NCBI GenBank assembly: GCA_009840635.1
Contig: VXNL01000014.1
Coordinates: 39,275-103,274, forward strand
DNA length: 64,000 nucleotides
Direction of reading: 5' to 3'
DNA from: Acidobacteriota bacterium
GTDB taxonomy: Bacteria; Acidobacteriota; Vicinamibacteria; Marinacidobacterales; Marinacidobacteraceae
Part shown: piece after piece, positions 57,207 to 61,339 of the stretch
How positions within the stretch are numbered: position 1 is the stretch's first letter
How the letters are laid out: each line of letters opens with the position of its first letter
Translations under genes and position numbers: made by a program
The notes under the pieces: generated by a model
Told to the model about the DNA's origin: nothing
Database searches by the model: none
The model's input: only the letters and a program-made list of their open reading frames with translations

Positions 57207-57358
57207 CACCGGAACCGGGCCGGAAACCCCGGCGGCAAAGCGTCGCGGCGGGGGCAAATGTGGTACAAGCGGTGTTCGTCCCTTCCGCCGGCCGAGGGCA
57301 GCCATCCGATCCTATCCTGCGGAGGACACGGCGCCGCACGCCGACCGGAGGCCCCACC

Positions 57359-59299
57359 ATGACCTCGCCGAAGAAGACGTACCGCCCGTTCGGAGACGGC
57401 GTCAGCCGCCGCGATTTCCTGTCCGGCGTTCCGGTCGCTCTCACCGGAGCGGCCCTTGCCTGCCGCGAGGTTCCGGAGTTCCAGGCGGAGATCGACCGCG
57501 CCGGCGAGGCCGACTACCCGCCGCTCCGCACCGGGATGCGCGGCTCCCACGACGGTTCGTTCGAGGTCGCCCACCAGTTCGCCCACGAGGGCCGCGAGTG
57601 GACCGCGACCGATACCGGAGAGGCGTACGACCTGGTGGTGGTGGGCGCCGGGATCTCGGGGCTGGCCGCCGCGCACTACTTCGCCAAGCAGACGGGACAG
57701 GATGCGCGCATCCTGCTCCTCGACAACCACGACGACTTCGGCGGCCACGCGAAACGTAACGAGTTCCGGCTCGACGGCCGCACCTACCTGATGAACGGCG
57801 GCACCCTGAACGTGGAGGCGCCTTCGCAGTACGGCGAGATCGCGGAAGGTCTGCTCAAGGAAATAGGGATCGACCGGAAGCGCTACTACGAGAGCATCGC
57901 CGCGGTCTCGGACACCTACGGCAACCTGGGCCTCCAGCGCGCGATGTTCTTCGACCGCGAGACCTGGGGGACGGATCAGCTGGTCGCCGGCGCCGGACGG
58001 CGGCCGCTGGCCGAGTTCCTAGCCGACTCGCCGATGCCGGAAGCGGTGCGGAACGACCTGATCCGGCTCCACTCCGACGGGCAGCCGGACTATCTCCCGG
58101 ATCTCTCTCCCGCGGAAAAGAAAACCTTCCTGGCCACCATCAGCTACCAGGACTTCCTGATCGAGCACGCGAAGTGCGACCCCGGCGTGGCCTGGTTCTT
58201 CGACCATCAACCCAAGGGCCTCTTCTGCACCGGGATCGACGCCTACCCGGCCCGTTACGCCTGGGAAGAGGGGTTGCCCGGCTTCTCGGGGATGGAGATT
58301 CCGGAGACGCCGCGGGACGCGCTCGCCGACGAACCCGGCGGCCAGCACGGCCGGGAGAACCAGGCCCGCGCCAACGAGGGCGATCCCGACCTCTACTTCC
58401 CGGATGGGAACGCCACCATCACCCGGCTGCTGGTGCGGGGTCTGATTCCGGGTTCGATGCCGGGTTCGACCATGGAAGACGTGGTGATGGCGCCGCTCGA
58501 CTACGGGATGCTGGACCGGCCGGAGAACCGGACCCGAATCCGGCTGTCCTCGACCGTCATCCGGGTCGAGCCCGGCGAGAGCGGCCCGGCCCGCGTCACC
58601 TACGTGCGGGACGACCGCGGACACACGGTCGCCGCCGGGAGGGTCGTACTGGCCTGCTGGCACAACATCATTCCCTACCTGGTCCCCGAACTGCCGAAGG
58701 CCCAGCGGGACGCTCTGTCCTGGCCGGTGAAGTCGCCCCTCCAGTACACGAGCGTCCTGCTCCGCAACTGGCGGGCGTTCACCGAGGCCGGCGTCTCTTC
58801 CATCGCCGCCCCCGGCGGGTACCACACCTCGATCGGGCTCGCGCCGCAGCTCGCGCTCGGCGACTACCGCACTTCGACCTCGCCGGACGAGCCGCTGGTG
58901 GTGCGGATGAACCGCTATCCGTGCGAGCCCGGGCTCTCCCGGCGCGAGCAGCATCGGATCGGGCGGATGGAACTCCTCCACACCACCTTCGAGACGGTGG
59001 AGGCGAACATCCGCGACCAGCTCAACCGGATGCTGGGCCGGAGCGGCTTCGACGACCAAAGGGACATCGCGGCGATCACCGTGAACCGCTGGCCGCACGG
59101 CTACACCTATTCCTACAACCCCCTCTTCGATCCTCCCGAGTGGTCCTTCGGGACCCCGGACGACCGGCCGAACATTCCGGCCCGACAGCCTTTCGGGCGG
59201 ATCGCCATCGCGGGGACCGACTCGGCGGCGAGCCCGCATTCCGACGCCGCCATCCGGGAGGCGCACCGGGCGGTCGGAGAGATCCTGGCGGCGGACTGA
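57359..59299 (+). CDS. Tat-exported FAD-dependent oxidoreductase (spermidine-dehydrogenase-like)
   Basis: The 646-residue product has a twin-arginine signal (GVSRRDFLSGVP) and a lipobox-like Cys (ALACRE). The FAD-binding Rossmann motif is VVVGAGISGLAAAHYF, the C-terminal FAD site IAIAGTDSAASPHSDAAI, and RNEFRLDGRTYLMNGGTLNVE follows the first domain. It is closest in layout to SpdH-type amine or flavin dehydrogenases; the substrate is not defined. It is followed 17 bases later by the MerB-like selenoprotein gene, in an apparent operon. Confidence 0.82.
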   Translation: MTSPKKTYRPFGDGVSRRDFLSGVPVALTGAALACREVPEFQAEIDRAGEADYPPLRTGMRGSHDGSFEVAHQFAHEGREWTATDTGEAYDLVVVGAGISGLAAAHYFAKQTGQDARILLLDNHDDFGGHAKRNEFRLDGRTYLMNGGTLNVEAPSQYGEIAEGLLKEIGIDRKRYYESIAAVSDTYGNLGLQRAMFFDRETWGTDQLVAGAGRRPLAEFLADSPMPEAVRNDLIRLHSDGQPDYLPDLSPAEKKTFLATISYQDFLIEHAKCDPGVAWFFDHQPKGLFCTGIDAYPARYAWEEGLPGFSGMEIPETPRDALADEPGGQHGRENQARANEGDPDLYFPDGNATITRLLVRGLIPGSMPGSTMEDVVMAPLDYGMLDRPENRTRIRLSSTVIRVEPGESGPARVTYVRDDRGHTVAAGRVVLACWHNIIPYLVPELPKAQRDALSWPVKSPLQYTSVLLRNWRAFTEAGVSSIAAPGGYHTSIGLAPQLALGDYRTSTSPDEPLVVRMNRYPCEPGLSRREQHRIGRMELLHTTFETVEANIRDQLNRMLGRSGFDDQRDIAAITVNRWPHGYTYSYNPLFDPPEWSFGTPDDRPNIPARQPFGRIAIAGTDSAASPHSDAAIREAHRAVGEILAAD

Positions 59300-59316
59300 G
59301 CGAACGGCCCGTCGGT

Positions 59317-59991
59317 TTGACGTTCGAGACGCGGGTGAGGACCGCGATCCTCGAGGTCTTCGCGGAGACCGGAATCGCCCCCTCGCCCGCAGGGATCGCC
59401 GAGCGACTCCGAGCGAAGCTGGATCCGGTTCTCGAGGCCTGGGACCGCCTCCGCGAGGGGCGCGCGATCGTCACCGGGGAGGCCGGACTCTCGATCAGAA
59501 TGGCCAACCCGTTCTCGGGCATTCCCACCGGGCACACCTTTGAGTCGGCGGGGATCCGCTACTACGCGAACTGCGCGTGGGACGTGCTGGGGATTCCCGC
59601 GGCGCTCGGGCGCGGCGGGACGGTTCGGTCGCGCTGCGCTCACTCCGGGGAATCCCTGCGGCTCCAAGTCGGGGACGAAGGACCGGAATCTTGTGACTGG
59701 CTCTTTCACTCGCTGGTGCCCGCGGCGCACTGGTGGGACGACATCGTCTTCACCTGAGCGAACATGCTGTTCTTCCGGTCGGAAGACGACCTTCGCGCCT
59801 GGTGCCGGGAGCGCGGCGTCGAGCCGGGGCCAGCGGTGCCGGTGCACCAACTGTGGCGCCTCTCGCGGGTCTGGTACGGCTCGCGGCTCGACCCCGAGGG
59901 GCCGCGGCCCACTCCCGGGGAGGCTCGCGCTATCTTCGCCGGCGTCGGGCTGACCGGCTCGTTCTGGGACCCGGTTCCCCGTCAGGAGTAG
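59317..59991 (+). CDS. merB: MerB-family organomercurial lyase, predicted selenoprotein with in-frame UGA at 59755
   Basis: Read through one TGA (59755-59757), the frame encodes 224 residues, close to MerB's 212. MerB splits carbon-mercury bonds with Cys96, Asp99 and Cys159. Here NCAWDV supplies C86 and D89, and C107 follows with exactly MerB's Asp99-Cys117 spacing. The TGA is residue 147, 40 residues after C107 (42 in MerB), and the flanks WWDDIVFT-U-ANMLFFRSEDD align with SF-C-xxVxFFAS around MerB Cys159. The frame then continues with a MerB-like C-terminus (VHQLWRLSRVWYG) to 59991. A SECIS-like hairpin lies 19 bases after the TGA. The start is TTG at 59317 (GTG at 59335 also possible). Alternatives are a nonsense-broken merB or two separate genes (59317-59757 and 59764-59991), both less likely given the coincidence of features. 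selA/B/C/D are not in the window. Confidence 0.8.
59769..59787 (+). promoter_or_regulatory. Predicted bacterial SECIS element (Sec insertion signal)
   Basis: Hairpin with pairs G59769-C59787 and T59770-A59786, a bulged T at 59771, then CTTCC paired with GGAAG, closed by the loop GGTC (59777-59780). The loop starts 19 bases after the TGA. In E. coli fdhF the minimal SECIS is also a short stem with bulged U17 and a GGUC loop (G23, U24 essential) starting 18 bases after the UGA. The bulge here is 5 rather than 3 pairs below the loop. It lies inside coding sequence, as bacterial SECIS elements do. Confidence 0.78.
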
Positions 59992-59995
59992 GACC

Positions 59996-61339
59996 ATGAC
60001 CGAGAAGCGATCCGGACTGACCCGCCGGCAACTGCTGGCCGCGGGGGCGGGAGCGGCGGCCGTGCCCGCGTTCGCTAACGCGCAGAGCGCTCCCGCGAGC
60101 CTGCTTGCGGCGCCGAAGATCCCGAACGTCCGCATCGGCTTCGTGGGCGTGGGCGGCATGGGGACGGTCCACGTCCGGAACCTGCTCGCAGTGCACCGGG
60201 CTTCGCCGGGCGTCGAGATCCGGGCGGTCTGCGACATCCGGCCCGAGCATGCCGAGCGCGCGCGGGACTTCATCCGGGAGGCCGGCGGACCCGATCCGAC
60301 GCTCTACACCCGGGGAGAACGGGACTACGAGCGGATGTGCGCCGAGGAGGAACTCGACCTCGTCTTCACCGCCACGCCGTGGCGCTTCCACGTCCCGGTG
60401 TGCGTCGCGGCGATGGAAAACGGCAAGCACGCCGCCACCGAAGTACCCGCCGCGACCACGATCGACGAGTGCTGGCAGCTCGTCGAGACCGCGGAACGCA
60501 CCGGCCGGCACTGCGTGATGATGGAGAACTGCAACTACGGCCGCTGGGAAATGATGGTGTTCCACATGGTCCGGATGGGGGTCTTCGGGGAGGTCCTCCA
60601 CGCCGAGGGCGGCTACCTGCACGACCTTCGCGAGGTGAAGTTCGCGAACCGCGGCGAGGGACTCTGGCGGCGGGCGCACTCGCGTACCCGGAACGCGAAC
60701 CTCTATCCAACCCACGGGCTCGGGCCGGTGGCGAACTGCATGGACATCGGGCGCGGGGACCGCTTCGACTACCTGGTTTCGATGAGCGGGCCCTCACGCG
60801 GCCTTCAGGACTACGCCCGGGAACACTTCCCGGAGGGCGCGCCCCAGCGGGCCGAGGAGTTCACGCTCGGCGACGTGAACCTGAGCCTCATCAAGACGGC
60901 ACGGGGCCGGACGATCACCGTGGTCCACGACACGAACCTGCCCCGTCCCTACAGCCGCATCAACCTGGTCCAGGGGACTCGGGGCATCTTCCACGGCTAT
61001 CCGAACCGGGTCTACGTGGAGGGCCGGAGCGAGTCGCACCGCTGGGACGACGCCGAGGTTTGGTACGAGCAGTACGCGCACCCGCTGTGGCGGAACGTCG
61101 CGAGCCCCGGCGAGGAACTCGGGCACGGGCGGATGGACTACCTCGAGGACTACCGGCTGATCCGCTGTCTCCAGGAGGGGCTGCCGACCGAGATGAACGT
61201 CTACGACGCCGCAGCGCTCTCCGCCGTCACCGACCTCAGCGAGCGCTCGGAGGCCGACCGGAGCCGGCCGATGGACTTCCCGGACTTCACCCGCGGCGGG
61301 TGGGAGACGTTCGAGAACCTGCCGGTGGTAGTGGACTGA
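59996..61339 (+). CDS. Tat-exported Gfo/Idh/MocA protein, GH109-like
   Basis: The 447-residue protein has a twin-arginine signal (LTRRQLLAAGAGAAAVPAFA) and an NAD-binding Rossmann motif (VRIGFVGVGGMGTVHV). GH109 features follow: GKHAATEVPAATTIDECW, MMENCNYGRWEMMVFHMV, GGYLHDLREV and YPTHGLGPVA. GH109 enzymes remove alpha-N-acetylgalactosamine by an NAD-assisted mechanism, but many relatives are uncharacterised oxidoreductases. It starts 4 bases after the MerB-like gene. Confidence 0.88.
   Translation: MTEKRSGLTRRQLLAAGAGAAAVPAFANAQSAPASLLAAPKIPNVRIGFVGVGGMGTVHVRNLLAVHRASPGVEIRAVCDIRPEHAERARDFIREAGGPDPTLYTRGERDYERMCAEEELDLVFTATPWRFHVPVCVAAMENGKHAATEVPAATTIDECWQLVETAERTGRHCVMMENCNYGRWEMMVFHMVRMGVFGEVLHAEGGYLHDLREVKFANRGEGLWRRAHSRTRNANLYPTHGLGPVANCMDIGRGDRFDYLVSMSGPSRGLQDYAREHFPEGAPQRAEEFTLGDVNLSLIKTARGRTITVVHDTNLPRPYSRINLVQGTRGIFHGYPNRVYVEGRSESHRWDDAEVWYEQYAHPLWRNVASPGEELGHGRMDYLEDYRLIRCLQEGLPTEMNVYDAAALSAVTDLSERSEADRSRPMDFPDFTRGGWETFENLPVVVD

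Follow-up and report, generated by a model that had tools for sequence, protein, structure and literature searches.

A predicted selenocysteine-containing MerB homologue in an Acidobacteriota genome and its branch of the MerB superfamily

The organomercurial lyase MerB binds mercury with a pair of cysteines and protonates the leaving carbon with an aspartate. Binding between mercury and selenium is very strong, and a selenolate, which is deprotonated at neutral pH, holds mercury more tightly than a thiolate does. A stretch of 64,000 nucleotides from an Acidobacteriota bacterium (assembly GCA_009840635.1, contig VXNL01000014.1, positions 39,275 to 103,274; hereafter the window) contains a gene at 59317..59991 whose full product is likely a 224-residue MerB-family enzyme in which an in-frame UGA is decoded as selenocysteine (Sec). 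MerB-like selenoproteins are already catalogued. SaoL (NF040728) is the only one in Table 1 of PMC13188914, where it is given the motif CU; an alkylmercury lyase MerB-like selenoprotein appears in the list of PMC9312934, and 'Organic mercuric lyase MerB2' is named among the predicted selenoproteins of PMC7435645. By term search MerB is absent from the main texts of PMC2398784, PMC5029168 and PMC12013277, and literature searches over open-licence papers returned nothing closer than the catalogue entries SaoL and MerB2.

Compared with MerB (PF03243; PDB 3f0o, 3f2f and 1s6l, and MerB2 5c17), the window protein has Sec in place of Cys159 and an identity of about 21–24 %. It resembles SaoL in being a MerB homologue with one Sec, but reaches only 31.4 bits with the SaoL model (cut-off 140), with the match limited to residues 6–121, and nine relatives score 23.3–58.5 bits. 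SaoL, known here by its model and listed motif, has CU where the window family has (F/Y)-(T/N/A)-U, with Thr preceding U147 in the window protein. The SaoL Sec may lie at the Cys159 position; the last position of the model (159) falls on the second Sec of a relative with two (L102). The MerB2 of PMC7435645, which is likewise a MerB homologue among predicted selenoproteins, is known by name only, so its identity with the family of the window protein cannot be judged. A preliminary description of the gene could not tell whether such a protein had been catalogued: MerB-like selenoproteins are indeed listed in the sources above, whereas the window protein and its nine relatives reach no cut-off of the NCBIfam MerB and SaoL models. 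The family of the window protein is real and widespread, a selenoprotein branch within the MerB superfamily that scores far under the SaoL cut-off.

Translation of the gene gives 146 residues, one TGA, 77 residues and a TAG (59989-59991) in a single phase, which confirms the earlier view of two same-phase frames parted by one TGA. Its elements are:

59317..59991, forward strand: Sec-MerB reading frame (predicted TTG start, 146 codons, UGA, 77 codons, TAG stop)
59572..59574, forward strand: codon of Cys86, at the MerB Cys96 position (PDB and family alignments)
59581..59583, forward strand: codon of Asp89, at the MerB Asp99 position (PDB and family alignments)
59755..59757, forward strand: in-frame UGA, predicted Sec147, at the MerB Cys159 position (translation, codon of the relatives, alignments)

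A TTG or GTG start lies at the same place in relatives from the window's genus. C86, D89 and C107 stand in the upstream part where they had been placed, and the downstream part opens with ANMLFFRSE, in keeping with the MerB-like C-terminal pattern reported after the TGA. With Sec passed as Cys, the read-through protein matches Pfam MerB at 93 bits over profile positions 1–126 (gathering cut-off 27 bits). The upstream part alone gives 48.9 bits over positions 1–78 and the downstream part alone 24.8 bits, under the cut-off, over positions 88–126, so the two are successive stretches of one MerB domain. Structure prediction also gives the read-through protein a MerB fold that continues past the UGA and matches MerB over the whole catalytic part. 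The gene is the sole MerB match in its draft genome (3.58 Mb, 110 contigs, 92 % complete), and its closest relatives that bear a name are metagenome-assembled genomes of Acidobacteriota.

That the TGA falls exactly on the catalytic Cys159 was borne out by HMMER alignment to PDB chains, in which residue 147 is aligned to that cysteine; the register is fixed because the aligned chain, 3f2g, is a C160S mutant and gives Ser as the next residue. C86, D89 and Sec147 of the window protein align as the catalytic Cys-x-x-Asp and second Cys/Sec. Across 113 family proteins, gathered mostly by a Sec-type query and with some genomes entered twice, so that column counts do not equal natural frequencies, the Cys159 column holds Sec in 94, Cys in 18 and Trp in one (Cys or Sec in 112/113), and the Cys96 column Cys in 105, Sec in six, Ser in one and Ala in one. 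The triads are C-D-U in 87 proteins, C-D-C in 15, U-D-U in five, C-C-C in three, and S-D-W, A-D-U and U-E-U in one each. Seven loci, either truncated or unreadable, do not enter this alignment, and the Cys loci L124, L125 and L128 gave no hit to the queries. The Trp protein (L097, genome G042) carries TGG in place of the Sec codon and lacks both the Cys of the Cys96 position and the hairpin sequence, although its genome has SelA and SelB. Three Cys-type MerB relatives (L123, L126 and L136) have Cys for Asp at position 99 (CMWC or CLWC), and one of them sits on a Paraburkholderia replicon.

The codon itself recurs widely. A scan of genome contigs found 75 related loci, 73 of them readable at the site: the 66 with TGA carry bacterial titles throughout, and the seven with TGC carry archaeal ones. 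The titles of the scanned loci include Acidobacteriota, Chloroflexota, Actinomycetota, Planctomycetota, Gemmatimonadota, Calditrichota, KSB1, Marinimicrobia and one Proteobacteria. A comparison of homologues at residue 147, as the preliminary description had proposed, finds TGA or a Cys codon throughout the readable loci, and the Cys homologues are one uninterrupted protein across the site. MerB is present in 15 of 60 relatives; seven of the eight genomes from the window's genus are among these, with a single TGA in each. On a tree of 106 distinct proteins, in which several forks are weak and some branches long, the Sec, Cys and Trp labels need five changes, compared with 17.8 when labels are shuffled. 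One match (G376, with three TGA and one TAG, below the cut-off) was dropped as spurious.

Homologues do not end at the TGA, an outcome that would have spoken for an ordinary stop, but run on with a conserved C-terminus, and purifying selection acts on the half downstream of the UGA. Against six relatives of the genus, the ratio of nonsynonymous to synonymous substitution (dN/dS) is 0.14–0.20 downstream and 0.22–0.30 upstream, the upstream count including about 14 codons before the start. In eight other pairs the downstream dN/dS is 0.06–0.46, in some pairs above the upstream value and always below 0.5.

A hairpin that could serve as selenocysteine insertion sequence (SECIS) follows the UGA:

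59771..59786, forward strand: predicted SECIS hairpin (arm UCUUCC 59771-59776, loop GGUC 59777-59780, arm GGAAGA 59781-59786)

The published bacterial model asks for G in the first two loop positions, a distance from UGA to loop of 16–37 nt and a minimum free energy (MFE) of at most −7.5 kcal/mol (PMC13188914). The window hairpin fits it, with loop GGUC starting 19 nt after the UGA and an MFE of −13.4 over 45 nt. In 77 TGA loci, which amount to 69 distinct 60-mers once L101, L102 and short loci are set aside, the six pairs, taken from the loop outward, are formed in 69, 69, 69, 69, 67 and 65 of the 69, and the loop reads GGUC in 51 of them and AGUC in the other 18. Three pairs have changed on both sides, from C-G to U-A in four related rows, from C-G to U-A in one and from U-A to C-G in three. 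The Ser codon of the hairpin is TCG in 65 cases and TCA in four, whereas outside the hairpin the same genes draw on all six Ser codons. Among 68 columns of conserved amino acids in 67 genes, the four lowest codon entropies belong to codons +6 to +9, which form the 5' arm and loop, against a median of 0.84 outside them; the two codons after these, which span the greater part of the 3' arm, come 27th and 68th of 68. This unusual synonymous constraint is seen only in TGA forms, and in the archaeal Cys genes (the six that are long enough) only one to three of the six pairs can form. The hairpin motif, itself derived from this MerB family, occurs once in the window against 0.05 expected and was found in 5 of 100 shuffles. 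Rfam returned over 59000-60500 only two weak matches, far under the gathering score and neither at the hairpin.

The machinery for Sec insertion is complete in the window genome, as a search for selA, selB, selC and selD, suggested earlier, revealed: SelA (7.4e-123), SelB (297 bits, cut-off 242), SelD (248 bits, cut-off 125) and a tRNA-Sec (selC; 69.7 bits, anticodon TCA). Among 396 genomes sampled from the phylum, MerB was matched in 29. SelA accompanies MerB in all 15 genomes with the single-TGA form and in three of four with the two-TGA type only, the fourth (G156) lacking SelA and having SelB over the cut-off. SelB passes its cut-off in G042 and in each of the 17 TGA-MerB genomes tested. 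The association holds in one direction only, since eight of the nine genomes with non-TGA matches only also carry SelA; G379, the remaining one, shows no SelA or SelB above the cut-off.

Taken together, codon position, hairpin, Sec genes and downstream selection support the preliminary description of a Sec-for-Cys MerB, and the window protein is almost certainly a selenoprotein. The best explanation as a whole, which we hold to be very probable, is that the UGA is read as Sec in a 224-residue MerB-family enzyme with a selenol at the Cys159 position, likely an enzyme for the cleavage of carbon-mercury bonds. SelB would insert Sec at the UGA while bound to the hairpin; Cys86 and Sec147 would then bind the mercury of R-Hg(+), and Asp89 would protonate the leaving carbon to yield R-H and Hg(II), as in MerB. 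The protein probably performs MerB-type organometal chemistry; that organomercury is its natural substrate we favour with somewhat less assurance. The organomercury substrate and the more reactive nucleophile of the preliminary description stay inferences. In Hg-C cleavage, selones are stated to be faster than their sulfur analogues (PMC11639659).

Several observations weigh against this picture. The MFE of the window hairpin has a z-score of only −0.80, with 38 of 200 shuffles equally stable, and the hairpin of L067 folds weakly. SelA is frequent among the genomes sampled from the phylum (252 of 396), and the association statistics ignore kinship. No further selenoprotein was shown in the window genome by the checks made, which covered formate dehydrogenase alpha subunit (none found) and SelD (a match without in-frame stop) and were not a whole-selenoproteome search. 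The MerB equivalog cut-offs are missed (NF033555, 50.7 of 200 bits; NF009710, 50.2 of 193 bits), and no MerA exceeds its cut-off in the window genome (371.6 of 454 bits). Unlike MerB, finally, the gene has no mer genes beside it, six mer proteins having been searched at the locus.

The missed equivalog cut-offs and the lack of mer genes beside the window gene also favour the strongest rival, in which a MerB-fold selenoprotein acts naturally on something other than organomercury, either another organometal or metalloid, or in a role tied to neighbouring oxidoreductase or mevalonate-pathway genes. The neighbours in the window are:

57260..59299, forward strand: FAD/NAD-binding oxidoreductase frame, upstream neighbour, ending 17 nt before the Sec-MerB start
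59996..61339, forward strand: Gfo/Idh/MocA oxidoreductase with glycosyl hydrolase 109 C-terminal domain, downstream neighbour, 4 nt past the Sec-MerB stop

The FAD/NAD-binding oxidoreductase family is also found upstream in L012, L013, L014 and L016. Related loci add to the case for such a role: 18 from Chloroflexota carry an HMG-CoA reductase-family gene upstream in the same orientation, 12 loci (one, L040, from Acidobacteriota) have an ACP_syn_III-type gene downstream, and four have a thiolase-type gene downstream. Pfam was checked for one member of the HMG-CoA reductase group, two of the ACP_syn_III-type group and one of the thiolase group. Among the Chloroflexota loci in L022-L070, Sec-MerB lies near genes of these three families in many. 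Against a non-mercury substrate stand the Cys-Asp-Cys/Sec triad, kept in nearly all rows, the predicted MerB fold, and a mer-like cluster that holds a Sec-form MerB (L087, 538-2880, on the same contig as L152). There the Sec-type gene, with the same hairpin sequence, lies between a divergent MerR-like gene (tblastn match; 139.7 bits, cut-off 150.85) and genes for MerT-like (26.8 bits, cut-off 150) and MerP-like (tblastn) proteins. When six mer proteins were compared with 139 loci, in flanks of at most about 3 kb, matches beside a Sec gene occurred only in this cluster, and elsewhere the triad and the fold are what suggest an organomercury substrate. A natural substrate other than organomercury is possible, though we judge it doubtful.

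A far less credible rival takes the UGA as an ordinary stop, leaving a 146-residue truncated MerB whose remainder is lost or made separately from the ATG at 59764, two codons past the UGA (a split gene). Gene callers do end the protein there: a protein database search gave 1654 relatives, the best 120 of which cover 54–65 % of the query, 119 of the 120 are 123–160 residues long, and 119 of the 120 stop at the residue just before the UGA; where names are given among the best 120, they are 'hypothetical protein' except for one 'Alkylmercury lyase'. A lone 146-residue form would, however, miss a catalytic residue, and this reading is also opposed by the Sec machinery, the constraint on hairpin codons in TGA forms only, the shared Cys/Sec column and the unbroken Cys homologues, which leave it highly improbable. 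Sequencing error, a pseudogene or a UGA that codes for a different amino acid, for instance Trp, could cite the draft state of the genome and the TGG of L097, but can be set aside as the least probable of all: the recurrence of TGA across many genomes makes a misread TGC or TGT very unlikely, dN/dS stays well under 1 on either side, the upstream gene itself terminates with TGA, and the one Trp protein in 113 also lacks the Cys96-position cysteine and the hairpin sequence. Split gene, pseudogene and UGA as Trp were accordingly rejected. If the UGA is indeed read as Sec, MerB-family genes in many environmental genomes are recorded as truncated, and surveys of demethylation genes would misread them. 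Paired Sec and Cys enzymes of one family would moreover make it directly testable whether a selenol cleaves organomercury or merely binds it.

The most novel part of this selenoprotein branch is a class with two Sec. In six loci (L100, L129, L130, L131, L132 and L149) TGA stands at both catalytic Cys positions: the motif U-x-x-D covers Cys96-Asp99, and FFWSEE follows the U at Cys159. L102 stands apart, as it too has U at these two positions but carries Glu at 99. Five of the six loci were scanned (all but L149) and match Pfam MerB at 41.7–58.4 bits, while no NCBIfam model reached its cut-off on four two-Sec proteins and L102, and no description of a two-Sec MerB was found in the literature searches. 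The second UGA of these genes is followed by the same hairpin sequence, here closed by a U-A pair. Folding of five loci predicts stems behind the first UGA as well, though with a fold that differs between loci. Such an enzyme would be a rare case in which both catalytic thiols are replaced by selenols. In genome G243 a two-TGA gene is followed on the same strand, about 0.6 kb on, by selA, selD and selB (L145, 1297-5197, reverse strand), and another selA and selB lie elsewhere in that genome. We lean slightly towards a broader reading, in which Sec rather than Cys is the rule in this MerB branch across Acidobacteriota, Chloroflexota, Actinomycetota, Planctomycetota, Gemmatimonadota and other phyla, and the two-Sec class forms a two-selenol mercury-cleaving centre that, lying in one genome upstream of its own selA-selD-selB, would make up a self-contained selenium-based organometal detoxification module. 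At a further locus (L142, G000:C62:55243-56181), selD lies inside an 808-codon frame that also weakly matches a flavoprotein MerA profile and is possibly a SelD-flavoprotein fusion.
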